A DNA stretch of 56,590 bases, taken from contig JAJXTH010000013.1 of assembly GCA_021783995.1 (NCBI GenBank), forward strand, positions 1-56,590, read 5' to 3'. The notes under the pieces are model-generated. The model saw only the letters and a list, made by a program, of their open reading frames with translations. It was not told the DNA's origin and did not search any database. The stretch's first letter is position 1; the number at the start of each line of letters is the position of its first letter. This document shows, in pieces, positions 20,290 through 31,700 of the stretch. The DNA is from Pseudomonadota bacterium. Its GTDB lineage: Bacteria > Pseudomonadota > Gammaproteobacteria > Burkholderiales > Gallionellaceae. A program made the translations under genes and the position numbers.

Positions 20290-21071
20290 TGTCTTCCTCC
20301 CTTGCACAATCGCTGACGCACCGCTTCAAAAGCACAGATCGCCGAAGCAGCCGCTACATTCAACGACTCTATACCTCCCGGCATCGGAATCCTGATCTCA
20401 TGGGTTGCATGCTTCGATAGACTTTCCGACAAACCTGCTCCCTCGTTTCCAAACATGAATGCGACATCACCAGACAGGTCGCATTCATAAAGTGAAGCTT
20501 CCGCCCTGAGGCTGGTTGCAAGTTTCATTCCCTTAAACGCCGAAGCCACTTCCGGCAGGTCCTGACATTCGTGTATCCTGGTGCAGAAATGCCCCCCCAT
20601 CGCCGCGCGCAGCACCTTGGGGGACCAGGCATCTGCGCATCCCGGCGAGAGAAAGACCCCATCGCAACCTGCCGCAGCACTCGTGCGTATTATCGAACCC
20701 AGGTTGCCAGGATCCTGTATGTCTTCGAGCAGCAATCCAAAACTGAAGTCTGCCGGTCCAGGCTTTTGCACCTCGATCAACGCAAGCATCCCCGTCGCGG
20801 TTTTCAATTCCGAAATCTCCGCAAAGAGCTTCCCGTCAAGCTCCGTGACCGGGATGCCCTGCATACGCTCTTTGAGCGCTTCAATTTCAACAGAATGCGA
20901 AGCAGCATTCAGCAGCACATGCAGTGGCTTCAACCCCGCATCGAGAAAAGAGCCAATCAGATGCGTTCCGTCCAGCAAGGTCTTCGCGGATTGCTTGCGG
21001 TTGCGCGCTGACGTTGCAATCTTCAAAAGCTCTCTGAAGAATGGGTTTTCCCTTGACTGGATCCGCTTCAT
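20286..21071 (-). CDS. SpoU/TrmH family RNA 2'-O-methyltransferase
   Basis: A 261-residue SPOUT enzyme. After an N-terminal substrate-binding region (residues 1-95) come the three family motifs: LEDIQDPGNLGSIIRTSAAAG (quoted in part; ~113-133), FMFGNEGAGLS (~208-218) and IPMPGGIESLNVAAASAI (~230-247). The knotted SAM pocket is therefore complete. The target nucleotide cannot be told. Its ATG overlaps the end of cphA by 4 bp and its stop overlaps the cytochrome start by 4 bp, so it is translationally coupled on both sides. Confidence 0.9.
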   Translation of the reverse strand: MKRIQSRENPFFRELLKIATSARNRKQSAKTLLDGTHLIGSFLDAGLKPLHVLLNAASHSVEIEALKERMQGIPVTELDGKLFAEISELKTATGMLALIEVQKPGPADFSFGLLLEDIQDPGNLGSIIRTSAAAGCDGVFLSPGCADAWSPKVLRAAMGGHFCTRIHECQDLPEVASAFKGMKLATSLRAEASLYECDLSGDVAFMFGNEGAGLSESLSKHATHEIRIPMPGGIESLNVAAASAICAFEAVRQRLCKGGRQ

Positions 21072-23641
21072 CCGGCCTCGGCTACCCTCTTTGCGATATG
21101 CGCCAGCGCTTCATCGACCTGATCGATCAGGATCAGGCAAAGGTCACCTGGCTCAAGCCGCTCGAGCGCCAGATCCATCGCGTGAAATTCCCCCGTGATC
21201 TCGTCCACTCTCTTCGCGCGCTTGGCATTAGCAAGTCCCTGCCTCAATAGGCCCAGCACCTCTCCGTCGGGACGGCCGCGCTGACACTGATCCTGATACA
21301 GGATGAGATCGTCGAACACATCGCCCAGCAATTCCGTCTGCATGCGTATGTCCTCGTCCCGCCTATCCCCGGCTCCGCTGATCACGACCACGCGCTTTTT
21401 CGCTTTCATGCTTTCTATCGCGGGTATCAGCGCCTGTATTGCATCCGGGTTGTGACCATAGTCCGCAATCACGACAGCGCCACGGTAATCGAAGAGATTG
21501 AAGCGGCCTGGTGCTGTCGCCGCATCGTTCACGAAACTCGACAACCCGCGGCATATTGTCTCCCAGTCCACCTTGAGCGCCCAGACAGCCGCGACCACAG
21601 CCATCGCATTCTCGACCTGAAAGCCTATCGTGCCATCTCTCGTGATAGGAATCTGTGCAAGCGGAATGCGCAGCTCGCGATTCTTCTCGCATGCGACGAG
21701 CTGGCCATCTTCCACATAGACGATGCGCTTTCCCTGAGCGCGGTGTGCCGCCATCAACGGGTTATGGCGATCGCGCGCAAAGAAGGTGACCGATCCAGGA
21801 CACATGTCTGCCATCCTGGCCACCATGTCGTCTTCGGCATTCAGGACTGCAATGCCGTCAGGTGCGACGTTCTGCACCACGACCCGCTTGACCACCGCCA
21901 GATCCTCGACAGTGCTGATGTAATTCAGGCCCAGATGGTCACCCATGCCTATGTTGGTCACGACAGCCACATTGCAGCGGTCGAACGCCAAGCCCTCGCG
22001 CAATATGCCGCCGCGAGCCGTCTCGAAGACGGCCGCATCGACGTCGGGATGCAACAGCACGTTGCGCGCGCTCTTGGGGCCGCTGCAATCCCCGGTATCT
22101 ATGCGCTTGCCCTGTATGTACACGCCATCGGAATTGGTCATGCCGACGCGCAACCCCTGGCAACCAAGGATATGCGAGATCAGGCGCACCGTGGTCGTCT
22201 TGCCGTTGGTGCCTGCCACCGCAACCAGCGGTATTCGGCCGTCCTCGCCGCTGCCGAACATCGAAGACACGATGAATCTTCCCACCATGCGGCCCTTGCC
22301 AAAAGAGGGCTGCAGATGCATGCGCAAGCCAGGCGCCGCATTGACCTCAACGATGCCACCTCCCTGCTCTTCCAGTGGCTTGAGCACGGAGTCGCAAACG
22401 ACGTCCACGCCGCAAACATCCAGCCCCACCATCTGCGCTGCAGCAACCGCGCTCGCCGCGAGATCGGGGTGTACGTCTTCCGTGACATCGGTCGCCGACC
22501 CTCCCGTGCTCAGATTCGCATTGTTGCGAAGCACGACGCATACACCCTTCTTCGGCACGGAGTCGACCGTATACCCCTGCAGTTCGAGGCGTGCGATGGC
22601 AATGCTGTCTATGCGCATCCGGGTAAGGGAAGTCGCATGCCCTTCTCCGCGCCTCGGATCCCTGTTCACCTGCTCGACGAGTTCGGAAACGGTATGCATG
22701 CCGTCCCCTATCACCATCGGAGGTTCGCGGCGGGCGGCAGCCACAACCTGATTGCCCACCACCAGCATCCGGAAATCGCTGCCGGGCATGAAGCGCTCTA
22801 TCATCACATCATCGCTGATCTTTCTTGCGGCCGCATAAGCGATCTCAAGATGTCCCCGCGTCTGCACGTTGACCGTGACCCCCTTGCCCTGATTTCCGTC
22901 AACCGGCTTCACCACGACGGGGCCTGCGATCTCGTTCATCGCACGCCATGCATCCTCGATATCGGCAACCGATCTGCCCCGGGGAACAGGCACACCTGCG
23001 GCTTCGAGCAGCTTTTTTGTGAGCTCCTTGTCCTGTGCGATAGATTCGCCTATCGCTCCGCTGCGATCGGTTTCAGCCGCCTGGATGCGACGCTGCTTGC
23101 TGCCCCAGCCGAACTGCACAAGACTGCCTTCCGTGAGCCTCCGATAGGGGATGCCGCGCCGCACGGCAGCCTCGACGATCGCCGCAGTGCTGGGGCCTAG
23201 GCGCACATCTTCATCCAGCTCGCGCAGCTGATGCAGCGCATCGGCAAGATCGAATGAAACATCCTCCATCGCCGAGCTGCAGAGCTTTTGTGCCAGTTCG
23301 AATGCCAGCCTGCCGACTGCCTCTTCGCTGTATTCGAAGACCACCTGATATACGCCCGGCTCCACTGTAACCGCAGTGCGGCTGAAACTGACAGGACAGC
23401 CCGCCTGAGCCTGAAGGTTAAGCGCAGCCATCTCCAGAATGTGCGCCATCGCGATCGCCTCTGTGTGACCCGGCACCTGCAGCATGCCTATCTCCGGGAA
23501 ACGCGCGCGCAGCCGGGCTTCGAATCCTGGAAGCCTCGCGATATCGCACTCCGCCTCAGAACAGGACACGATCGCTTCGATGGCCGTATGCCGGCTCCAC
23601 AGATTGGGACCGCGCAGCGCGCGTATGCGTGACACTTCCAT
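21068..23641 (-). CDS. cphA: Cyanophycin synthetase, full length
   Basis: CphA (857 residues) polymerises Asp and Arg into cyanophycin with two ATP-driven steps. The layout is an N-terminal domain (1-160), an ATP-grasp domain (about 220-470: VVVKPVDGNQGKGV, GIVEVNAAPGLRMHLQP) that adds Asp, and a Mur-ligase domain with an intact P-loop GTNGKTTT (about 477-484) and a C-lobe (IADYGHNPDAIQ) that adds Arg. In the N-domain the metallopeptidase-like HxxEH site reads H67-I-L-E70-M71: the second His is Met. AAGGGAAG lies upstream of the ATG. The gene is 18 bp after the second synthetase and overlaps the methyltransferase by 4 bp. Confidence 0.95.
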   Translation of the reverse strand: MEVSRIRALRGPNLWSRHTAIEAIVSCSEAECDIARLPGFEARLRARFPEIGMLQVPGHTEAIAMAHILEMAALNLQAQAGCPVSFSRTAVTVEPGVYQVVFEYSEEAVGRLAFELAQKLCSSAMEDVSFDLADALHQLRELDEDVRLGPSTAAIVEAAVRRGIPYRRLTEGSLVQFGWGSKQRRIQAAETDRSGAIGESIAQDKELTKKLLEAAGVPVPRGRSVADIEDAWRAMNEIAGPVVVKPVDGNQGKGVTVNVQTRGHLEIAYAAARKISDDVMIERFMPGSDFRMLVVGNQVVAAARREPPMVIGDGMHTVSELVEQVNRDPRRGEGHATSLTRMRIDSIAIARLELQGYTVDSVPKKGVCVVLRNNANLSTGGSATDVTEDVHPDLAASAVAAAQMVGLDVCGVDVVCDSVLKPLEEQGGGIVEVNAAPGLRMHLQPSFGKGRMVGRFIVSSMFGSGEDGRIPLVAVAGTNGKTTTVRLISHILGCQGLRVGMTNSDGVYIQGKRIDTGDCSGPKSARNVLLHPDVDAAVFETARGGILREGLAFDRCNVAVVTNIGMGDHLGLNYISTVEDLAVVKRVVVQNVAPDGIAVLNAEDDMVARMADMCPGSVTFFARDRHNPLMAAHRAQGKRIVYVEDGQLVACEKNRELRIPLAQIPITRDGTIGFQVENAMAVVAAVWALKVDWETICRGLSSFVNDAATAPGRFNLFDYRGAVVIADYGHNPDAIQALIPAIESMKAKKRVVVISGAGDRRDEDIRMQTELLGDVFDDLILYQDQCQRGRPDGEVLGLLRQGLANAKRAKRVDEITGEFHAMDLALERLEPGDLCLILIDQVDEALAHIAKRVAEAG

Positions 23642-23659
23642 TAAAAAGCTTCCCTTAGA

Positions 23660-25810
23660 TTATTTGAGCAAGACATCGGTCGTTTCAGAAGTCGCAATCC
23701 CTGCGCGCAAAAGATCGAGCTGAATTCCGAGCGCCCAAGCTGCTGCAATTGCAGCCAGCATGTATTCGACCTGTTTTTCATTCCCTTCCAGTATGCCAGG
23801 CAGGTTGATCAGCAGAGTCTCCTTTTTACCCAGGCAAAGGACGATTCGCCCGTTGCGAACCAGCACGGCACGTCCCCCTTTTTCAAGGTGAACCTGAACC
23901 AGAGGCAGCTCGCCTTGGGCTGCGAAGTAGATCACTTCCCCATCGCAATACTTTGCAAGATCAGCAACCAGCTGATTCGAGCCATTGAGAACAGCGACGC
24001 CGTCGGGAAGCACCACATCGACCTGGGTTCTGACCACATTGCAAACCTGATCCATGTTCTCGATGTAATACTCGCCGAAATGGCGTTCAGGCTCGAGGTT
24101 CGTGACGATACCGATCTGGCAGCGGTCATAGCCCAGGCCTTCTGACAGTATCGTCTGCATGCTGTTTTCGATTACAGCCGCATTCACTGAACGGTTCAAT
24201 AGCACCTTCTGCGAGGATGCCCAGTCCGCGCAATTCTTGCTGTCCACCAGACGCTTGTCGAAGTAGAGCCCTTCGCTGCTCACACATCCCACATGAAGAC
24301 CAGCGAGCTTCAACAGGCGCGAGACGAGTCGCGCAACCTTCGCCATGCCGTGCGTGCCGCATATGCCGATCACGGGAATGCGGCCGTTTTCATTTTGAGG
24401 AAAAAGGCTGTCGACGATCGCTCGTCCCACCGGGCGAGGTTTTCCGGAGGCGGGCTTCAGATGCATCAGAAGGCCCGGACCCGCATTGATTTCGACGATC
24501 GCGCCACCCTGCCCTTCGAGCGGGCGCGAGATATCGGTCGCCACCAGATCTATGCCTGCAATGTCGAGCCCTATGACGCGCGCGGCGAGTTCTGCAGTTG
24601 CCGCGACGTCAGGATGCACCTCATCGGTCACATCGAAGGCGACATTCCCGTTGCGTTGTATCAGCACCCTGGTACCTGATGGAGGTATGGACTCCGGCGT
24701 ATAGCCCTGACGTTCAAGCTCGAAGTGAGCCGCAGGATTGCTGTCGATGTCGATCACATCGAGGGGAAACTCCTCCGCTTCGCCGCGGCGCGGATCGCAG
24801 TTGATCTGCTCGTCGATCAGTTTCCTGATGGTTGTTTTCCCGTTCGCCAGGAGCCAGACAGACTCTCCCTTGACCGCAGCAGCCAGCCTTCCTCCGACAA
24901 CCAGCAACCTGTGCTCGTTGCCGCGCACGAAGCGCTCGACGATGACTTCGCTGCCTTCGACTTCCGCAAGCCTGTACGCAGCCTCAACCTCGTCTTGCGT
25001 CATGAGTTCCATCGAAACGCCTCGCCCGTGGTTTGCATCCGAAGGCTTGACCACGACTGGAAGGCCGATGTCCTGGGCCGCCTCCCATGCATCGATAGGG
25101 CTCTCTGCGATGCGCCCCTCGGGAACCGGAACCCCGCACGCGTGAAGCAGAGACTTGGTGAGATCCTTGTCCTTGGATATGCTCTCTGCAATCGCGCTGG
25201 TCCTGTCGGTCTCTGCGGTCCAGATGCGGTGCTGGTTTGCGCCATATCCAAGCTGTACCAGATTGCCTCCGGTCAGACGGATGAAAGGAATGCCCCTGTC
25301 TGCTGCAGCATCCACGATGCACGCGGTGCTGGGGCCAAGGCAGAGCGCATCGACCATCTCGCGCAATCTGGCCACCACGGGTGCAACCTCATAAGTCCTG
25401 TCATGGATTGCGCAAAGGACAAGATCGCGCGCCGCGTGTATCGCCTCGCGACTCACGGCCTCGTTGCGCGAGCGCACCACGACCTTGTATACCCCGCGTT
25501 TAGAGGTTTCGCGAGCCTTGCCAAACCCGCTCTGCATTCCGGCGAGGTTCTGCAATTCGATCGCGACATGTTCGAGTATGTGACCAGGCCAGGTGCCCTC
25601 GCGCAATCGCTGTAGAAAACCTCCTCGCTCACCGACGCTGCAGCGGTGCTCCACCAGCGTCGGCAGCCATGCAGTCAGCCGCTCGTAGAAGCCGGGTATC
25701 GTATTGGAGGGAGAGTCTTCCAACTCCCCGATGTCCAGCCACACCTCGAGCACGGGACGATAGGTCCATATATTTGGGCCGCGCAGCGGCAAAATTTTTA
25801 GAAACTCCAT
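23660..25810 (-). CDS. second cyanophycin synthetase with degenerate Mur-ligase domain (CphA'/CphA2-like)
   Basis: A 716-residue homologue of the neighbouring CphA. The N-domain keeps the HxxEH motif (H77-I-L-E80-H81), and the ATP-grasp domain is intact (VVVKPSDANHGRGV, AIVEINAGPGLLMHLKP). The Mur P-loop reads GTHGMAK (485-491) instead of GTNGKTT, so ATP binding there should be lost. The protein ends about where the Mur C-lobe would begin, roughly 140 residues short. CphA2-type enzymes with a dead Mur site use one ATP and condense Asp-Arg dipeptides; whether this one does is inference. The start is ATG 25810 (MEFLKILPLRG) with GGAAG upstream. It heads the cphA operon. Confidence 0.88.
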   Translation of the reverse strand: MEFLKILPLRGPNIWTYRPVLEVWLDIGELEDSPSNTIPGFYERLTAWLPTLVEHRCSVGERGGFLQRLREGTWPGHILEHVAIELQNLAGMQSGFGKARETSKRGVYKVVVRSRNEAVSREAIHAARDLVLCAIHDRTYEVAPVVARLREMVDALCLGPSTACIVDAAADRGIPFIRLTGGNLVQLGYGANQHRIWTAETDRTSAIAESISKDKDLTKSLLHACGVPVPEGRIAESPIDAWEAAQDIGLPVVVKPSDANHGRGVSMELMTQDEVEAAYRLAEVEGSEVIVERFVRGNEHRLLVVGGRLAAAVKGESVWLLANGKTTIRKLIDEQINCDPRRGEAEEFPLDVIDIDSNPAAHFELERQGYTPESIPPSGTRVLIQRNGNVAFDVTDEVHPDVAATAELAARVIGLDIAGIDLVATDISRPLEGQGGAIVEINAGPGLLMHLKPASGKPRPVGRAIVDSLFPQNENGRIPVIGICGTHGMAKVARLVSRLLKLAGLHVGCVSSEGLYFDKRLVDSKNCADWASSQKVLLNRSVNAAVIENSMQTILSEGLGYDRCQIGIVTNLEPERHFGEYYIENMDQVCNVVRTQVDVVLPDGVAVLNGSNQLVADLAKYCDGEVIYFAAQGELPLVQVHLEKGGRAVLVRNGRIVLCLGKKETLLINLPGILEGNEKQVEYMLAAIAAAWALGIQLDLLRAGIATSETTDVLLK

Positions 25811-25946
25811 CAAGTCTTCCATGTGAGTTGTGCGGTTTTCAGCATTTACCCAATGTTTGGGTTTACCCGCTTTTTTTCGTCAAGTTTACCAGAACGCGAG
25901 GCAAAACTGTTTGTCCGGGCGTTTTATTGTAGTAATATTCCCGCCA
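25811..25946. promoter_or_regulatory. divergent control region of the cyanophycin locus
   Basis: The 136 bp between the second synthetase and the ABC exporter hold an inverted repeat ACCCAA-TGT-TTGGGT (25848-25862), three direct copies of TTTACC (25845, 25862 and 25885) and a plausible rightward promoter TTGTCC (25911-25916), 16 bp, TAATAT (25933-25938). That promoter would start transcription at about 25945, almost at the exporter's GTG, which would make its message nearly leaderless. No clear leftward promoter was found. Confidence 0.45.
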
Positions 25947-28214
25947 GTGAACACCTCCTCCCCTTTGCCATATAAAGCTCAGGACGCGCCACACGCCGCT
26001 CCGGGGATATCCCTTTTCGATGGAGAAACGATCCAGGCACAGCTCGAGATCAATCTCGACAGCAAGCTCGATTTTTCGCATAGCCTGTTAATCGCGACAA
26101 ACCGGCGCCTGCTCCATCTCATAGGACAGGAGACCAGGGCTTACCCCTACCGGGCAGCCATGGCTTTTCAGCGCCACGACCACGGAGGAGTGGGAAGAAT
26201 CGAGCTCTTCGAGGACAACAGGCTCGTAGCCCGGTGGCTTTACACACTTGCGTGCAATGTCCAGGCTGCAATCTTCCTCAAGCATCTGGAACAACAGTTA
26301 AACCATTTTCTCACGGGCATCGCGATCGCTGAAGAAGCCCCCGAGCTCTGCCCGGACTGTTCTACGCCCATGGTTAATGCTGAGTGTCCTGCGTGCAGCG
26401 CAACGATCAACGCGCCGCCTTCGACGTGGACGCTGTTTCGCCTCTGGCGCTTTGCTAAACCCTATCAGTGGCAGCTTCTGTCAGGATTCTTGCTGATGCT
26501 AGCTTCCACTGCAGCCACACTGGTGCCACCCTACCTCACGATGCCGCTGATGGACAGGGTGCTGATTCCCTATCAGAACGGGAAACCGATAGACTTCGTC
26601 ATCGTGGCCTGGTTGCTCACAGGGTTGCTGGGTTCGGCGCTTCTGGCATGGGGACTGGGCTGGGCCAAGACCTACATCCTGGCGCTAGTGAGCGAAAGGA
26701 TAGGTGCAGACCTGCGCACCGTGACCTATGAACATCTGCTACGCCTGTCGCTGGAATACTTCGGCGGAAAGCGCACCGGAGACCTGATGTCCAGGATAGG
26801 TTCCGAGTCCGACAGGATATGCGTCTTTCTATCCCTGCACCTGCTCGATTTTGCAACGGACGTGCTGATGATCGCGATGACATCCGTCATCCTCTTTTCC
26901 ATCAACCCATGGCTTGCGCTGGTGACCCTGCTTCCCCTGCCCTTCATCGGCTGGATGATCCACTATGTCAGGGACAGGCTGCGCACCGGCTTCGAAAAGA
27001 TAGACCGCGTCTGGTCCGAGGTGAGCAATGTGCTGGCCGACACCATACCGGGCATCCGTGTGGTCAAGGCGTTCGCCCAGGAGAAACGGGAAGCGGAGCG
27101 CTTCCGCATCGCCAATGCCCACAATTTGCAGGTGAACGACCGCATCAACAGGATCTGGTCGCTGTTCACGCCCAGCGTATCTCTTCTGACCGAGATCGGC
27201 CTGCTCGTGGTCTGGGCCTTCGGTATCTGGCAGGTGTCCAGAAATCAGATCACCGTCGGCGTTCTGACCGCTTTTCTCGCCTACATCAGCCGTTTCTATT
27301 CGCGCCTTGATTCGATGAGCCGCATCGTCTCCGTAACCCAGAAGGCTGCAGCAGGCGCCAAGCGCATCTTCGACATACTCGATCATATATCGAGCGTGCC
27401 CGAGCCCGCCAACCCCGTGCACCTCGAGAAGATCGAGGGACGGGTAGAATTCGGGAATGTCGGATTTCGTTACGGGAACCGCGCCGTGATCAAAAACCTC
27501 AACCTGAAGATAGCACCTGGAGAGATGATAGGGCTGGTAGGCCATAGCGGTTCAGGAAAAAGTACGCTGGTCAACCTGATGTGCCGCTTCTACGATGTCA
27601 CCGAAGGGGCCATCAGCGTGGACAACGTCAACATCCGATCGCTGCCCATCCCTGAATACAGACGCCACATCGGCCTGGTCCTGCAGGAGCCCTTTCTGTT
27701 CTTCGGCAGCATTGCCGAGAACATCGCCTATGGAAAACCCGATGCCACGCGTGGCGAAATCATAGCCGCCGCACGCGCTGCGCATGCGCACGAATTCATA
27801 CTGCGCCTGCCCCATGGCTATGACTCCCTGGTAGGCGAACGGGGTCACGGACTCTCAGGCGGAGAACGACAGCGCATTTCGATCGCAAGAGCCCTGTTGA
27901 TCGATCCTCGCATACTGATACTCGACGAAGCGACCGCTTCGGTTGATACTGAAACAGAGAAGGAAATACAGAAGGCTCTGGACAATCTGGTTCAGGGCAG
28001 AACTACCATCGCGATCGCGCATCGTTTATCCACACTGCACAAGGCAAACCGCCTCGTCGTCCTGGACAAGGGCGAGATCGTCGAAATTGGCAGTCATCAG
28101 GAGCTCATGGAAAGAAAAGGTCACTACTACCGGCTCTATCAGGCACAGGCGCGCAACGTGGACACGGAAATGGACCAGAGGCGCATACCGATGGAAGGAA
28201 AGGTGAGCACATGA
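25947..28214 (+). CDS. cyanophycin-associated ABC exporter (fused membrane and ATPase domains)
   Basis: A 755-residue half-transporter. The N-terminal ~115 residues form a soluble module, followed by a zinc ribbon CPDC-x9-CPAC (about 130-146). Six membrane helices lie at about 165-480. The ATPase has Walker A GHSGSGKST (~533), signature LSGGERQR (~634), Walker B ILILDEATASVD (~654-665) and H-loop AIAHRLS. Such proteins are known beside cyanophycin genes as the cyanophycin metabolism-associated ABC transporter; the cargo is unknown. The GTG at 25947 is the best start after the promoter; an upstream in-frame ATG at 25830 would run through the control region. It overlaps the DUF1854 gene by ATGA. 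Confidence 0.85.
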   Translation: MNTSSPLPYKAQDAPHAAPGISLFDGETIQAQLEINLDSKLDFSHSLLIATNRRLLHLIGQETRAYPYRAAMAFQRHDHGGVGRIELFEDNRLVARWLYTLACNVQAAIFLKHLEQQLNHFLTGIAIAEEAPELCPDCSTPMVNAECPACSATINAPPSTWTLFRLWRFAKPYQWQLLSGFLLMLASTAATLVPPYLTMPLMDRVLIPYQNGKPIDFVIVAWLLTGLLGSALLAWGLGWAKTYILALVSERIGADLRTVTYEHLLRLSLEYFGGKRTGDLMSRIGSESDRICVFLSLHLLDFATDVLMIAMTSVILFSINPWLALVTLLPLPFIGWMIHYVRDRLRTGFEKIDRVWSEVSNVLADTIPGIRVVKAFAQEKREAERFRIANAHNLQVNDRINRIWSLFTPSVSLLTEIGLLVVWAFGIWQVSRNQITVGVLTAFLAYISRFYSRLDSMSRIVSVTQKAAAGAKRIFDILDHISSVPEPANPVHLEKIEGRVEFGNVGFRYGNRAVIKNLNLKIAPGEMIGLVGHSGSGKSTLVNLMCRFYDVTEGAISVDNVNIRSLPIPEYRRHIGLVLQEPFLFFGSIAENIAYGKPDATRGEIIAAARAAHAHEFILRLPHGYDSLVGERGHGLSGGERQRISIARALLIDPRILILDEATASVDTETEKEIQKALDNLVQGRTTIAIAHRLSTLHKANRLVVLDKGEIVEIGSHQELMERKGHYYRLYQAQARNVDTEMDQRRIPMEGKVST

Positions 28215-28711
28215 ACTTCCACCAGAATGACAGGAGACAATCGAGTCGCTCGACGAACTTCACGCTTGCACGCGATGAAGATGGCATGCTCGTGCTTCAA
28301 TGCAATGGAATCATGCATAAAGGCGTGGCCCCGGTACGCGCGTTCCCCATCGCTGCGCCGCACGAATGCGTCTCGCTTGTTGACCAGAATAGCCATGAAG
28401 TCGCATGGATAGAGTCTCTGGATAACGTATCGCCGGACATGCGTTCCATGATCATGGAAGACCTGGCTTACCGCGAATTCACGCCAGAGATACGCCGCAT
28501 CGTCAGCGTGTCGAGCTTTGCAACCCCCAGCACCTGGCAGATCGAGACCGACAGGGGAAATGCCGAGCTTCTGCTCAAGGCCGAAGACCACGTCCGGCGT
28601 CTGTCACATACCGCACTGCTCATCACGGACGGCCACGGCATCTCCTTCCTGCTTCGCAACATCGAAGATCTTGATTCTCACAGCCGAAAGCTGCTCGACA
28701 GATTCCTGTAA
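28211..28711 (+). CDS. DUF1854 family protein, cyanophycin-associated
   Basis: A 166-residue soluble protein. The family pattern is readable: RAFPIAAPHECVSLVD (~42-57), MEDLAYREFTPEIRRIVSVS (quoted in part; ~80-98), WQIETDRGNAE (~107-117) and a terminal LDSHSRKLLDRFL. DUF1854 proteins are known next to cyanophycin synthetases and this type of exporter, but no activity is established. Its ATG overlaps the exporter stop (28211-28214), so the two are made together and may form a complex. It ends 72 bp before the MarR gene. Confidence 0.85.
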   Translation: MNFHQNDRRQSSRSTNFTLARDEDGMLVLQCNGIMHKGVAPVRAFPIAAPHECVSLVDQNSHEVAWIESLDNVSPDMRSMIMEDLAYREFTPEIRRIVSVSSFATPSTWQIETDRGNAELLLKAEDHVRRLSHTALLITDGHGISFLLRNIEDLDSHSRKLLDRFL

Positions 28712-28783: not shown

Positions 28784-29215
28784 ATGAAGGCGCTGAACGA
28801 AACTTTCGCGGAATCAACGTTTCTGACCACGCACGCATGGCGCATCGCGCTGGATCGCCAGTTGAGGCCGCGCGGCTTCACCCTTTCCCGCTGGACATTG
28901 CTGCTTCATCTTTCGCGCAACGACGGATGCACGCACAAGGAGCTCGCGCAAAGCATGGGGATAGAGGCTGCTACGCTGGTCAGGCTGGTGGACAACATGG
29001 AAAAGGAAGGCATGTTAAAACGCAGCGGCAGCAAGACAGATCGCAGGGTCAAGCATCTATACCTCTCCGAAACCGGTCTTTCCAGCGTCGATGAGATACG
29101 CGCATGCGCGACCGACCTTCGCAACAGGCTGCTGTCCGGATTAAGCCACGACGAGATCGAGAATGCGCTGCATGTGATGAATGCGATTCGCGAAAAACTG
29201 GGGGCAATCTCATGA
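28784..29215 (+). CDS. MarR family transcriptional regulator
   Basis: A 143-residue winged-helix repressor. The DNA-binding part includes LSRWTLLLHLSRNDGCTHKE (~36-55), the recognition region QSMGIEAATLVRLVDNMEKE (~57-76) and a wing KRSGSKTDRRVKHLYLSETG (~80-99) with the conserved D-R-R. It is first in an operon with the membrane-fusion and MFS genes and lies just behind a perfect palindrome, so it probably represses itself and the pump. It overlaps the next gene by ATGA. Confidence 0.9.
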   Translation: MKALNETFAESTFLTTHAWRIALDRQLRPRGFTLSRWTLLLHLSRNDGCTHKELAQSMGIEAATLVRLVDNMEKEGMLKRSGSKTDRRVKHLYLSETGLSSVDEIRACATDLRNRLLSGLSHDEIENALHVMNAIREKLGAIS

Positions 29216-30186
29216 AGATTGCCAATGCAAAATTCTGGGTTCTGGCTTTAGTGCTGGCTGTCGTTCTCGGCTGGCTTGCCTATCAGCACTACCACGAAAT
29301 AGAACGCAGCACGGAGAACGCCTATATAGGGGCAGATGTTGTGAACGTAGCCCCCCAGGTATCTGGGAGAGTCATCAAGGTGTATGTGCAGGAAAACCAG
29401 TTCGTGAAGAAAGGCGACACGCTTTTCGACATAGACCCCGAGCCATACAGGATCGCGCTTGAGCATGCCAGGGCGGATCTTGCCGAAGCATATCAAAACG
29501 CGCGCCGCGACACCGCAGACATAGCACTTGCAAAGGCCGGCATCGCGCAAACCGAGAGCGATCTTGCTAATGCCCTGAGCATCGAAGCTCGGGACAGACA
29601 GCTCGTAGCCCGGCATTTTCTTTCCCAGCAGGCCCTGGACGACGCGATGACCCGAGTGAAGAGCCTCAAAGCCGCATTGAACGAGGCGCGCGCGAAGCTT
29701 CAAAGCGCACTTTCTGCACCCGAGAATACTGTGGATCGCGGCGACTACATGAAGGCAAAGGCCGCGATCGACCAGGCCAATCTCGACCTCCAGCGCACGC
29801 ACGTTCTCGCAGAGCATGATGGGCAGATCAGCAATCTCACGCTCACCGCAGGCTCCACGGTCGGCAAAGACACTCCGCTTTTTGCGTTGATCGACAAGAA
29901 CAGCTTCCATGTGGATGCAAACTTCAAGGAGACTGAACTGCCCGGAATAAAAACCGGACAGAAGGTTGATATCGAATTCGACATGTACCCGGGGGAGCAT
30001 TTCAAGGGCACTGTGGAAAGCATAGGCGGAAGCACTGGCACCGCATTCTCATTGCTACCGCCCCAGAACGCCACAGGGAACTGGGTCAAGATCACGCAGC
30101 GAGTTCCCGTGCGCATCAGGCTTGACAATATCGACCGCGCGCTTCGCATCGGAGCGACCGCGACCGTCACTGTGCATCTCAGGTGA
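29212..30186 (+). CDS. EmrA/HlyD-type membrane fusion protein
   Basis: A 324-residue periplasmic adaptor of an MFS tripartite pump. There is one N-terminal membrane helix (about 7-25), then the split lipoyl domain (NAYIGADVVNVAPQVSGRV... and ...VLAEHDGQISNLTLTAGS), a coiled-coil hairpin (~80-190) and a beta-barrel (~215-290). The true start is the ATG at 29212, overlapping the marR stop. It should bridge the EmrB-like transporter and an outer-membrane channel; no TolC-like gene is in the window. Confidence 0.9.
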   Translation: MKIANAKFWVLALVLAVVLGWLAYQHYHEIERSTENAYIGADVVNVAPQVSGRVIKVYVQENQFVKKGDTLFDIDPEPYRIALEHARADLAEAYQNARRDTADIALAKAGIAQTESDLANALSIEARDRQLVARHFLSQQALDDAMTRVKSLKAALNEARAKLQSALSAPENTVDRGDYMKAKAAIDQANLDLQRTHVLAEHDGQISNLTLTAGSTVGKDTPLFALIDKNSFHVDANFKETELPGIKTGQKVDIEFDMYPGEHFKGTVESIGGSTGTAFSLLPPQNATGNWVKITQRVPVRIRLDNIDRALRIGATATVTVHLR

Positions 30187-31700
30187 TGGAGGCGAAGCGG
30201 ATACTGATCAGCGTGGCCGTGATGGCGGCGACCATCATGCAGGTGCTCGACACGACCATCGTCAATGTCGCCCTGCCCAACATGGCAGGAGAGCTCGATG
30301 CAACACCCGACAACATCAGCTGGGTGCTGACCTCCTACCTGATCGCCTCCGCCATACTGATGCCGTTGACGGGCTATCTGACTGACCGCATGGGACAACG
30401 CCGCTATCTCCTGATCAGCATCGCTGGTTTCGTCATCACGTCTGCGCTTTGCGGCATGGCAGGCTCTCTCTTCGAGATGGTTCTGTTCCGCTTTCTTCAG
30501 GGTCTGTTCGGCGCATCTCTCGTTCCACTCTCGCAGTCCGTGATGCTGCAGGTGTTTCCAGGCGAACAGCGCGGCAAGGCGATGGCGATCTGGAGCATGG
30601 GCGTGATGGTCGCCCCGATACTTGGGCCGACGCTCGGAGGATGGCTTACCGAATCCGTCAGCTGGCGCTGGAATTTCTACATCAACCTTCCTGTCGGCAT
30701 TCTCTCCTTCCTGCTTTCGATACGCCACGTCCCAAACACCGAGATCAAGGAGCGACGCATGGACTGGATGGGATTTTCCTCTCTTGCGCTTGCGATCGGC
30801 GCGCTGCAGCTTGTACTGGACCGCGGCAATCAGGACGACTGGTTCAGTTCAAGGATGCTGACCGTTGCAGCGCTAGCGGGCGCGCTCTCCATGATCTTCT
30901 TCTTGGTCTACGCACTGACAGGAAAACACCATCCGCTGTTCGACCTGCGCATCTTCAAGGACAGGAATTTCTTGTTCGCGAGTCTCATCATGACGACGAT
31001 AGGCATCGGATTCTTCGGCGGCATGCTCTTAAATTCGATCTTCCTGCAGGAATTCCTGAACTATCCAACCTTCGAGGCCGGGCTATACATGGCGCCGAGA
31101 GGTCTCGCCTCCTTCCTCGTGATGATCCTGGTCGGCAAGTATTCAGGCAGGGTATCTCCCCGCTTCTTCGTCTTCGTCGGCATAATTGCCAGCATTTTTG
31201 GAAACTACCTGATGACGAGATTCACCGGAGAGATCACGGCACACGATCTGATCCTTCCGATGATGCTGCAGGGACTGGGCATGGGACTGATCTTCGTGCC
31301 AATCTCCACGCTTGCCTTCACGACGCTACCCAAAACCATCGCGGCCGAAGCCGCCGGCATCTACAGCCTGATCCGCGCGCTGGGCTCGGCAGTCGGCATC
31401 TCGATACTCACGACCTTTTACTCGAGAGAATCCGAAAAAGCCTGGAGTCTGTTAAGAGGAAACGTGAACATATACAACGATGCGCTGCACGCTTATCTCG
31501 CTCCCTTGCATCTCGGCATTGAGACCCATCAGGGTGTTGCGATCGCAGCCCGCGCCGTGCTTCACGAGGCGCAGAACATCGGCTTCATCTCCGGCTTCTG
31601 GTTTGCCACGCTCAATTTCGTCTGCATGCTTCCGCTTCTTTTCCTCGTGAAGAAAACAAAGGCGGGCAGCACACAGGCGATGCAGGTCAGTCCCGAATAA
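30186..31700 (+). CDS. EmrB/QacA-type MFS drug exporter (DHA2, 14 helices)
   Basis: A 504-residue proton-driven exporter. The DHA2 motifs are visible: the helix 1 motif LDTTIVNVALP (about 19-29), motif A DRMGQRRYLL (~68-77) and motif C GVMVAPILGPTLGGWLT (~141-157). Fourteen hydrophobic segments can be counted roughly. ATG 30186 shares its A with the TGA of the adaptor gene; a GTG at 30183 is the alternative. With MarR and EmrA it forms a three-gene inducible efflux operon against an unknown compound. Confidence 0.9.
   Translation: MEAKRILISVAVMAATIMQVLDTTIVNVALPNMAGELDATPDNISWVLTSYLIASAILMPLTGYLTDRMGQRRYLLISIAGFVITSALCGMAGSLFEMVLFRFLQGLFGASLVPLSQSVMLQVFPGEQRGKAMAIWSMGVMVAPILGPTLGGWLTESVSWRWNFYINLPVGILSFLLSIRHVPNTEIKERRMDWMGFSSLALAIGALQLVLDRGNQDDWFSSRMLTVAALAGALSMIFFLVYALTGKHHPLFDLRIFKDRNFLFASLIMTTIGIGFFGGMLLNSIFLQEFLNYPTFEAGLYMAPRGLASFLVMILVGKYSGRVSPRFFVFVGIIASIFGNYLMTRFTGEITAHDLILPMMLQGLGMGLIFVPISTLAFTTLPKTIAAEAAGIYSLIRALGSAVGISILTTFYSRESEKAWSLLRGNVNIYNDALHAYLAPLHLGIETHQGVAIAARAVLHEAQNIGFISGFWFATLNFVCMLPLLFLVKKTKAGSTQAMQVSPE

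Follow-up and report, generated by a model that had tools for sequence, protein, structure and literature searches.

The window, meaning the whole stretch of 56,590 nucleotides analyzed here, is one whole contig (JAJXTH010000013.1) of a Gallionellaceae genome (GCA_021783995.1; 2.18 Mb, 94.6% complete), and it carries two adjacent genes for cyanophycin synthetase paralogues, hereafter CphA and CphA'. CphA' lies upstream of CphA with a gap of 18 bp, and both proteins passed the NCBIfam cyanophycin synthetase subfamily model. In the profile search, the TIGR02068 score of CphA' was 739 bits, under the cut-off of 850, and the synthetase-model match of CphA' stopped at position 713–715 of 862–871, which indicates that the Mur C-lobe is absent. 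The active-site residues are divided between the two proteins: the ligase residues stand in CphA, the complete zinc site of the N domain stands in CphA', and the same division of the N-domain motif was found in every assessed pair from other genomes.

The third active site of SuCphA1 holds zinc with C59, H79, and H83 and uses E82 as the general base; the corresponding N-domain motif of cyanophycin synthetases, Cx19HxxEH, comprises four residues and is carried by 83% of CphA1 (PMC9262961). According to the same source, this site cleaves cyanophycin slowly and in an endo-acting manner, chiefly to tetramers that serve as primers, and the primer-dependent TmCphA1 becomes primer-independent when ligase-dead, N-active SuCphA1 or the isolated N domain is supplied in trans. 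In the window CphA', the motif is complete, and H57, F67, R70, and E87 near the N site are also present in the alignment; judged by these residues, CphA' would be of the N-domain endo-cyanophycinase type. HxxEH occurs nowhere in the window CphA, in which the aligned position is without the Cys and both the second His and the intervening loop have been lost. An earlier note on this DNA had reported HILEM in CphA and HILEH in CphA'. Both lie where it placed them, its numbering of HILEH as residues 77–81 holds from the Met at 25810, and its suggestion that HxxEH is the metal site agrees with the published zinc motif (PMC9262961).

Residue numbers of the G and M domains follow TeCphA1, in which Asp is bound by R323, N394, S396, and R458 and the chain end by R309; H267 is catalytic and stabilizes the acyl-phosphate, and mutation of E215 removes most of the activity of TeCphA1 and about half of that of SuCphA1 (PMC9427784). 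The window CphA contains all of the G-domain Asp-ligase residues (R309, R323, N394, S396, D431, E450, and R458) and a Mur-type M domain with P-loop, C-lobe, R731, and H748. Its ATP-grasp domain, which had been called intact in the earlier note, is so with respect to the Asp-ligase residues but not throughout, since Gln takes the place of the catalytic H267 and Ser that of E215. Tested for an Asp-ligase pocket and for an active Mur domain, the window CphA' showed neither (Table 1). The contrast between the P-loops GTNGKTTT of CphA and GTHGMAK of CphA', together with the missing Mur C-lobe of CphA', had also been noted earlier and was confirmed by sequence and model match.

Table 1 Features of the cyanophycin locus, with positions counted along the window
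Feature	Position	Strand	Remarks
CphA	21068-23641	-	857 aa; predicted elongating cyanophycin synthetase, N-domain zinc site lost; TIGR02068 992 bits (cut-off 850)
Intact Mur P-loop GTNGKTTT of CphA	22190-22213	-	sequence
Gln 251 of CphA (DGNQGKG), replacing catalytic H267 of TeCphA1	22889-22891	-	alignment; role of H267 after PMC9427784
HILEM, HxxEH remnant in CphA	23429-23443	-	aa 67-71; alignment
CphA'	23660-25822	-	720 aa; N-domain site complete, Asp pocket gone, Mur domain dead and truncated
Destroyed Mur P-loop GTHGMAK of CphA'	24338-24358	-	sequence
LMHL of CphA', Asp-binding R458 replaced by Leu	24458-24469	-	alignment
QRNGNV of CphA', LSTGG part of the Asp-binding loop (including S396) deleted	24641-24658	-	alignment
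Gly 319 of CphA', replacing Asp-binding R323	24866-24868	-	alignments
HILEH of CphA'	25568-25582	-	aa 81-85 from ATG at 25822; aa 77-81 from in-frame Met at 25810
Cx19HxxEH zinc hydrolase motif of CphA'	25568-25642	-	aa 61-85; complete; motif after PMC9262961
ABC transporter, cyanophycin metabolism-associated	25830-28214	+	NF052233, 1381 bits (cut-off 880); divergent from the pair
DUF1854 protein, cyanophycin metabolism-associated	28211-28711	+	NF052234, 210 bits (cut-off 150); PF08909

Pairs were collected at four taxonomic levels. Searching the genus with CphA' as the query gave a match in 20 of 61 genomes, with CphA adjoining in 20/20, the remaining listed matches being weak. With CphA as the query, 37 of 150 genomes of the family were positive and a CphA' match adjoined in 37/37, in two pieces in G119 and partial in G142. 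In the order, CphA' gave a match in 94 of 250 genomes, which comprised 86 pairs, six unpaired genomes of family f41, the unpaired G267, and G289, which was neither; a few of the pairs are truncated by contig ends. The class search yielded a match in 18 of 369 genomes and three further pair genomes. The total was 122 pair genomes, of which 121 were analyzed, G277 (one of the 86 order pairs) being left out. Pair sequences were placed on a MAFFT alignment in TeCphA1 numbering. The N-site counts omit the CphA of G326, whose N terminus falls on a contig edge, and the CphA' of G142 and G324, whose N domains are missing at contig edges; a G289 fragment labeled CphA by the script is no pair member and stands outside the motif counts, although it is within the n = 121 of the G- and M-domain rows.

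The Cx19HxxEH motif was complete in all 119 CphA' with an N domain and in none of the 118 aligned CphA; two more CphA N termini, inspected separately, were also without HxxEH, which gives 0/120 overall. Three CphA kept HxxEH without the Cys. A misalignment was considered as an explanation of the missing motif and rejected, since a search of the first 190 residues of each unaligned CphA by regular expression found Cx19HxxEH in 0/118 and HxxEH in 3/118. H57, F67, R70, E87, and Y110 were constant in CphA' (119/119), and the columns of F67 and R70 were gaps in 117 and all 118 of the CphA sequences, respectively. The earlier note had proposed a survey for co-occurrence of HxxEM in one paralogue with HxxEH in the other. 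The complete site was indeed found in every assessed CphA' and in no CphA, but Met is only one of several replacements of the second His in paired CphA (of 118 CphA, 28 have Leu, 24 Phe, 21 Val, and 5 Met). A second, named sample of 80 loci, which overlaps the first in part and covers Nitrosospira, Nitrosomonas, Zoogloea, Accumulibacter, Rhodocyclus, Undibacterium, Pigmentiphaga, and Thermomonas, gave the complete motif in 80/80 CphA' and 0/78 CphA; in five further pairs from a phylum sample, the CphA motif was found in 0/5 and the one CphA' assessed has it. Chance falls far short of explaining why CphA is without the motif and CphA' has it. Identity of CphA' to the window CphA' ranges from 45 to 89%. 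In the single-contig genome G119 (L233), CphA' is split into two open pieces of 551 and 329 aa, the first of which holds the N motif, and CphA is intact.

Across the 121 CphA' rows, the R323 column is Gly in 116, the R458 column Leu in 115, and the S396 column a gap in all 121, and loss of the Asp pocket is thus general in CphA'; N394 is kept in 111/121, and K220, K261, H267, R309, D431, and E450 are kept in 114 to 120. H748 of the Mur domain was found in 10/121 (1/80 in the named sample). Because the Asp-pocket loss is general and the Mur site is kept in part of the CphA' proteins, the Mur-site loss looks later and repeated. In the CphA' of G490 (L197, L113), the G-domain ATP residues have changed too and the N motif is complete, so that the hydrolase has outlasted the other sites there. 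Paired CphA keeps the checked Asp-binding and Mur residues.

A single tree shared by the 113 complete pairs served for counting substitutions; these counts, the identity values, and the M-core position counts leave out eight genomes whose genes are broken, partial, or mislabeled. Positions 57, 59, 67, 70, 79, 82, 83, and 87 did not change once in CphA', and CphA changed 16, 32, 17, 22, 42, and 36 times at the six undeleted N-site positions. The reverse was found at the Mur site, where K499 changed 27 times in CphA' versus 0 in CphA and D585 changed 53 times versus 0. Mean pairwise identities run the same way: 0.48 in CphA versus 0.78 in CphA' for the N-site region, 0.70 versus 0.48 for the M core, 0.71 versus 0.55 for the Asp-binding G-omega, and 0.72 in both for the G core plus lid. 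M-core positions 603 and 607, which are N-site substrate contacts in SuCphA1, are Arg and Asp in 114/114 CphA'. Position 607 is mixed in CphA and Arg 603 is present in 104/113; only 607 is therefore specific to CphA', because Arg 603 is common in CphA too.

Synthetases without a partner mostly have the N-domain residues themselves. By alignment column, the four motif residues were present in 17 of 19 unpaired synthetases of the first set, the exceptions being G627 and one of the extra copies of G211; two of the 21 rows labeled solo (G289 and G379) could not be assessed. The strict Cx19 spacing was found in 4/19, versus 119/119 assessed CphA', because many unpaired synthetases have a longer loop. 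The phylum sample gave a match in 29 of 398 genomes, with 20 pairs, and the four residues in 9/9 single synthetases. Motif-less synthetases without an adjoining CphA' are rare in these samples. G211 (L208, L221) has, besides its pair, two further synthetase copies near cyanophycinase, neither with the N motif; one of the two is not among the 19. In G196, G317, G350, and G280 (L199, L200, L201, and L203; family f41), the unpaired synthetases have as neighbors a cyanophycinase and a second gene that resembles Mur ligases.

A G-domain tree was built from 113 CphA, 114 CphA', and 19 unpaired or extra synthetases, with nine genomes excluded. All CphA and CphA' formed one clade (support 0.994) that excluded the 19 unpaired or extra copies; CphA' was monophyletic (0.991), and CphA was monophyletic with weak support (0.39). 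The tree fits one duplication, and the pair counts reflect long-term retention, not independent inventions. One genome of the phylum sample, G929, has one synthetase only, in which the three sites are all intact (L377, 9440–11782), beside an ABC transporter and a DUF1854 gene, and is without cyanophycinase. In a wider FastTree tree with 31 of the pairs, it fell inside the joint clade, beside paired CphA (SH 0.95–0.97; joint clade 0.55 or 0.93 depending on the alignment part). Such a placement would be expected if loss of the N site from CphA was confined to cases in which CphA' assumed its role. G929 is a possible pre-split, ancestor-like relative, although its gene is cut by a contig end, and a CphA' may have been lost or not assembled. 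Gln at the H267 position also occurs in G929 and in the extra copies of G211.

The genomic setting of the pair was compared in a chosen 62 of the 122 pair genomes, 18 of the 19 unpaired genomes (G627 omitted), and 14 genomes of the phylum sample. TIGR02069 cyanophycinase exceeded the cut-off in 3/67 pair genomes (3/62 plus 0/5) versus 26/27 unpaired genomes (18/18 plus 8/9); weaker matches only were found in four more pair genomes (three of the 62 and one of the 5). One cyanophycinase copy of G211 adjoins its extra synthetase. A six-frame TIGR02069 search of the window genome gave no match at E <= 0.001, so that CphA' is not CphB-type by profile. The NF052233 ABC transporter showed the opposite distribution, exceeding its cut-off in 67/67 pair genomes (62/62 plus 5/5) versus 1/27 unpaired genomes (0/18 plus 1/9), the single one being G929. 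Its usual place is beside the pair; G189 has it about 8 kb away, and in G299, G335, and G356 it has a different location. Of the 80 loci of the named sample, 67 contain it, 35 divergent and 29 co-directional, and nine of the 13 loci without it have less than 3 kb of upstream sequence. A recognizable cyanophycinase has been reported in 2.8% of 903 betaproteobacterial genomes with CphA1, a lack that was called unanticipated and for which unrecognized isozymes were suggested (PMC10206079). Cyanophycin occurs in Bordetella species according to a review (PMC8560796).

The conserved module in the window and elsewhere consists of the ABC transporter (NF052233), the DUF1854 protein (NF052234), and the CphA'/CphA pair. 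Homology of the window ABC transporter begins near aa 57, and its true start is therefore probably further in; the additional N-terminal stretch has a zinc-ribbon-like CxxC...CxxC patch. Export of cyanophycin may be the task of this transporter, which would be a striking possibility. Past the module, at 28784–31700 on the forward strand, the translations of three genes appear to resemble a MarR-type regulator, an HlyD-type membrane-fusion protein, and an MFS pump, an arrangement like that of emrRAB-type efflux operons. The closest CphA' records in the named collection, which may omit records very near the window, come from two proteobacterial metagenome-assembled genomes (MAGs; 88 and 72% identity) and two Sideroxydans MAGs (71 and 70%). 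In a plasmid collection, 22 records match at 1e-30, each with less than 60% identity.

AlphaFold2 gave confident models of both window proteins. The model of CphA' (pLDDT 88.6) had as its top PDB match 7txv, SuCphA1 E82Q with cyanophycin (TMq 0.87), and its TMq against CphA2 was 0.66; that of CphA (pLDDT 89.7) matched 7wae best (TMq 0.93).

The reading that we favour, and consider probable, is that one three-site synthetase has been divided over two paralogues, CphA being the elongating enzyme and CphA' a trans-acting, primer-making endo-cyanophycinase that is maybe also the missing cyanophycinase. After a duplication, the active sites would have been apportioned: CphA would have kept Asp addition by the ATP-grasp G domain and Arg addition by the Mur-like M domain, and CphA' the N-domain zinc hydrolase, with the Asp pocket lost and the complete Mur site lost in most lineages. 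CphA alone would depend on primers and start chains poorly; CphA', perhaps in contact with CphA, would cleave the long chains formed first, and CphA would extend the short pieces. Such cutting would parallel that by the SuCphA1 N domain, which acts in cis and, experimentally, in trans (PMC9262961). Since the cutting activity would sit on its own polypeptide, its amount could be adjusted separately, and CphA' may also break down the polymer in genomes without cyanophycinase. A division of labor in which the paralogue cuts primers, recycles dipeptides, or both had been proposed in the earlier note. The survey of assessed pairs supports the division, and primer cutting is suggested by analogy with SuCphA1; dipeptide recycling seems the weaker part, as most pair genomes tested are without cyanophycinase, the would-be source of dipeptides, and CphA' is unlike CphA2 in having the N motif.

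Several observations weigh against this reading. The pair counts are not independent events because the pairs share ancestry. On the side of CphA, H267 is Gln in 115/120 paired proteins and E215 is mostly Ser or Ala, so that CphA may not be a normal elongase; moreover, G627 and the two extra copies in G211 are without the motif and have no CphA' adjoining. On the side of CphA', the Mur lysine K499 persists in 53/121 (57/80 in the named sample), and eight of the 121 proteins are full length (871–883 aa) with GxNGKTV and D585/H586, the CphA' of G1056 being alike. K220, K261, R309, and D431 of the CphA' G domain, which serve ATP binding and the chain end, showed zero changes in the 113 pairs, and with the equal conservation of the G core this suggests that CphA' is not just a free-standing N domain. 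Judging from these residues, it may do more than hydrolyze, for example dimerization, ATP sensing, or another ligation. From the literature, Ralstonia eutropha H16 has two CphA homologues and its wild type reportedly makes no cyanophycin (PMC11362209), and a review places extracellular cyanophycinases in Nitrosomonas and Ralstonia, in contrast with the general lack (PMC8560796).

The closest competitor, which we regard as a real though lesser possibility, is that CphA' is mainly the missing intracellular cyanophycinase that mobilizes stored polymer, with priming of CphA being incidental or otherwise done. The near-complementary distribution of TIGR02069 between pair and unpaired genomes, the suggestion of unrecognized betaproteobacterial isozymes (PMC10206079), and the location of CphA' on a separate polypeptide whose dose is independent of CphA all speak for it. 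However, the N-domain activity is slow and endo-acting and gives mainly tetramers rather than dipeptides (PMC9262961), the close spacing of CphA' upstream of CphA (18 bp in the window; median 34 nt in the named sample) suggests expression joint with synthesis, and the absence of CphA's own site where CphA' occurs likewise points to synthesis. It is improbable, in our estimation, that CphA' is instead a CphA2-like ligase that adds a unit other than Asp, such as beta-Asp-Arg dipeptides, and has the N site in addition. The unchanged K220, K261, R309, and D431 beside the replaced or deleted R323, S396, and R458 would fit an enzyme whose nucleophile pocket was altered and not one that was abandoned, and the G core is conserved as in CphA; against this, CphA2 is described as having no N motif (PMC9262961), the model of CphA' fits CphA1 better than CphA2, the dipeptide-making enzyme is missing from most pair genomes tested, and the CphA' of G490 lost its ATP residues but kept the N site.

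We give still less credence to a CphA' without catalytic activity that serves CphA as scaffold or regulator and keeps the motif for structural zinc. The conserved G core forms a large dimer interface in TeCphA1 (PMC9427784), and the loss of the Asp pocket and mostly of the Mur site would suit such a role, but E82, the general base and not a zinc ligand, and the substrate-binding R70 are as constant as the zinc ligands (119/119), and D607 at the substrate groove is constant in CphA'. Ordinary decay, in which two redundant copies lost sites at random without any functional link, appears very improbable. Duplicates often decay, and the Mur sites of CphA' did so differently across lineages; however, the pattern is unbroken in the assessed pairs, the copies were retained together although CphA' has diverged widely from that of the window, and the substitution counts at the sites are reciprocal, on which ground random decay was rejected.

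A wider version of the division into CphA and CphA', which we offer tentatively and think rather unlikely as a whole, would make the betaproteobacterial machine an obligate two-protein system. CphA' would found the chains and be the missing degrading enzyme; together with the ABC transporter and the DUF1854 protein, the system would produce short chains, trim them, and perhaps pass them through the membrane instead of merely storing them; and motif-less 'primer-dependent' CphA1s would largely be half-enzymes with a primer-maker next door. If the division itself is true, it would explain why a share of CphA1s is without the primer-making site (PMC9262961) and why cyanophycinase is rarely recognized in betaproteobacteria (PMC10206079). 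It would also show cleanly how duplication can divide an enzyme with several sites, one copy holding the ligase sites and the other the hydrolase that opposes them, in bacteria that include iron oxidizers, nitrifiers, and activated-sludge bacteria. For cyanophycin production, paired CphA would then need co-expressed CphA' for a good polymer yield.

Loci of this kind have been described before. The activated-sludge 'Group 1' cphA cluster has two cphA copies, an ABC transporter, and no cyanophycinase (PMC10687191), and Sideroxydans has adjacent cphA1/cphA2 and no cyanophycinase (PMC5178258); both are evidently the same kind of locus as that in the window. Tandem cphA genes of Tetrasphaera are also mentioned in PMC10687191. 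The second copy of the Group 1 and Sideroxydans loci is named cphA or CphA2, and a comparison of the active sites of the two copies was not found in the available portions of these sources. The adjacent cphA pair with an ABC transporter and without cyanophycinase is thus already known, and the split of the active sites is apparently new: neither this division, nor its constancy in pairs, nor a tie to the missing cyanophycinase was found in the open-license PMC literature searched. TmCphA1 of Tatumella morbirosei (7lgn) resembles paired CphA in having none of the four motif residues (PMC9262961), but differs in that the available portions of that source describe no partner gene. Cyanobacterial CphA2 (7ta5, 8fxh) is, like CphA', shorter than CphA1; it is active at a single site and ligates dipeptides (PMC10206079). 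CphA2 is described as having no N motif in what PMC9262961 offers on it, whereas CphA' has the motif and a fold nearer CphA1, and membership of CphA' in CphA2 was ruled out by this motif. The intracellular cyanophycinase CphB (TIGR02069) also cuts the cyanophycin backbone, but it is a different, exo-acting enzyme. The nearest relative of both window proteins is CphA1 itself (SuCphA1 and TeCphA1; 7lg5, 7txv, 7wae), whose three-domain fold is common to CphA and CphA', whose Cx19HxxEH is found in CphA', and whose Asp-binding and Mur residues are found in CphA; CphA1 carries the three sites on one chain, and here they are distributed over two proteins.

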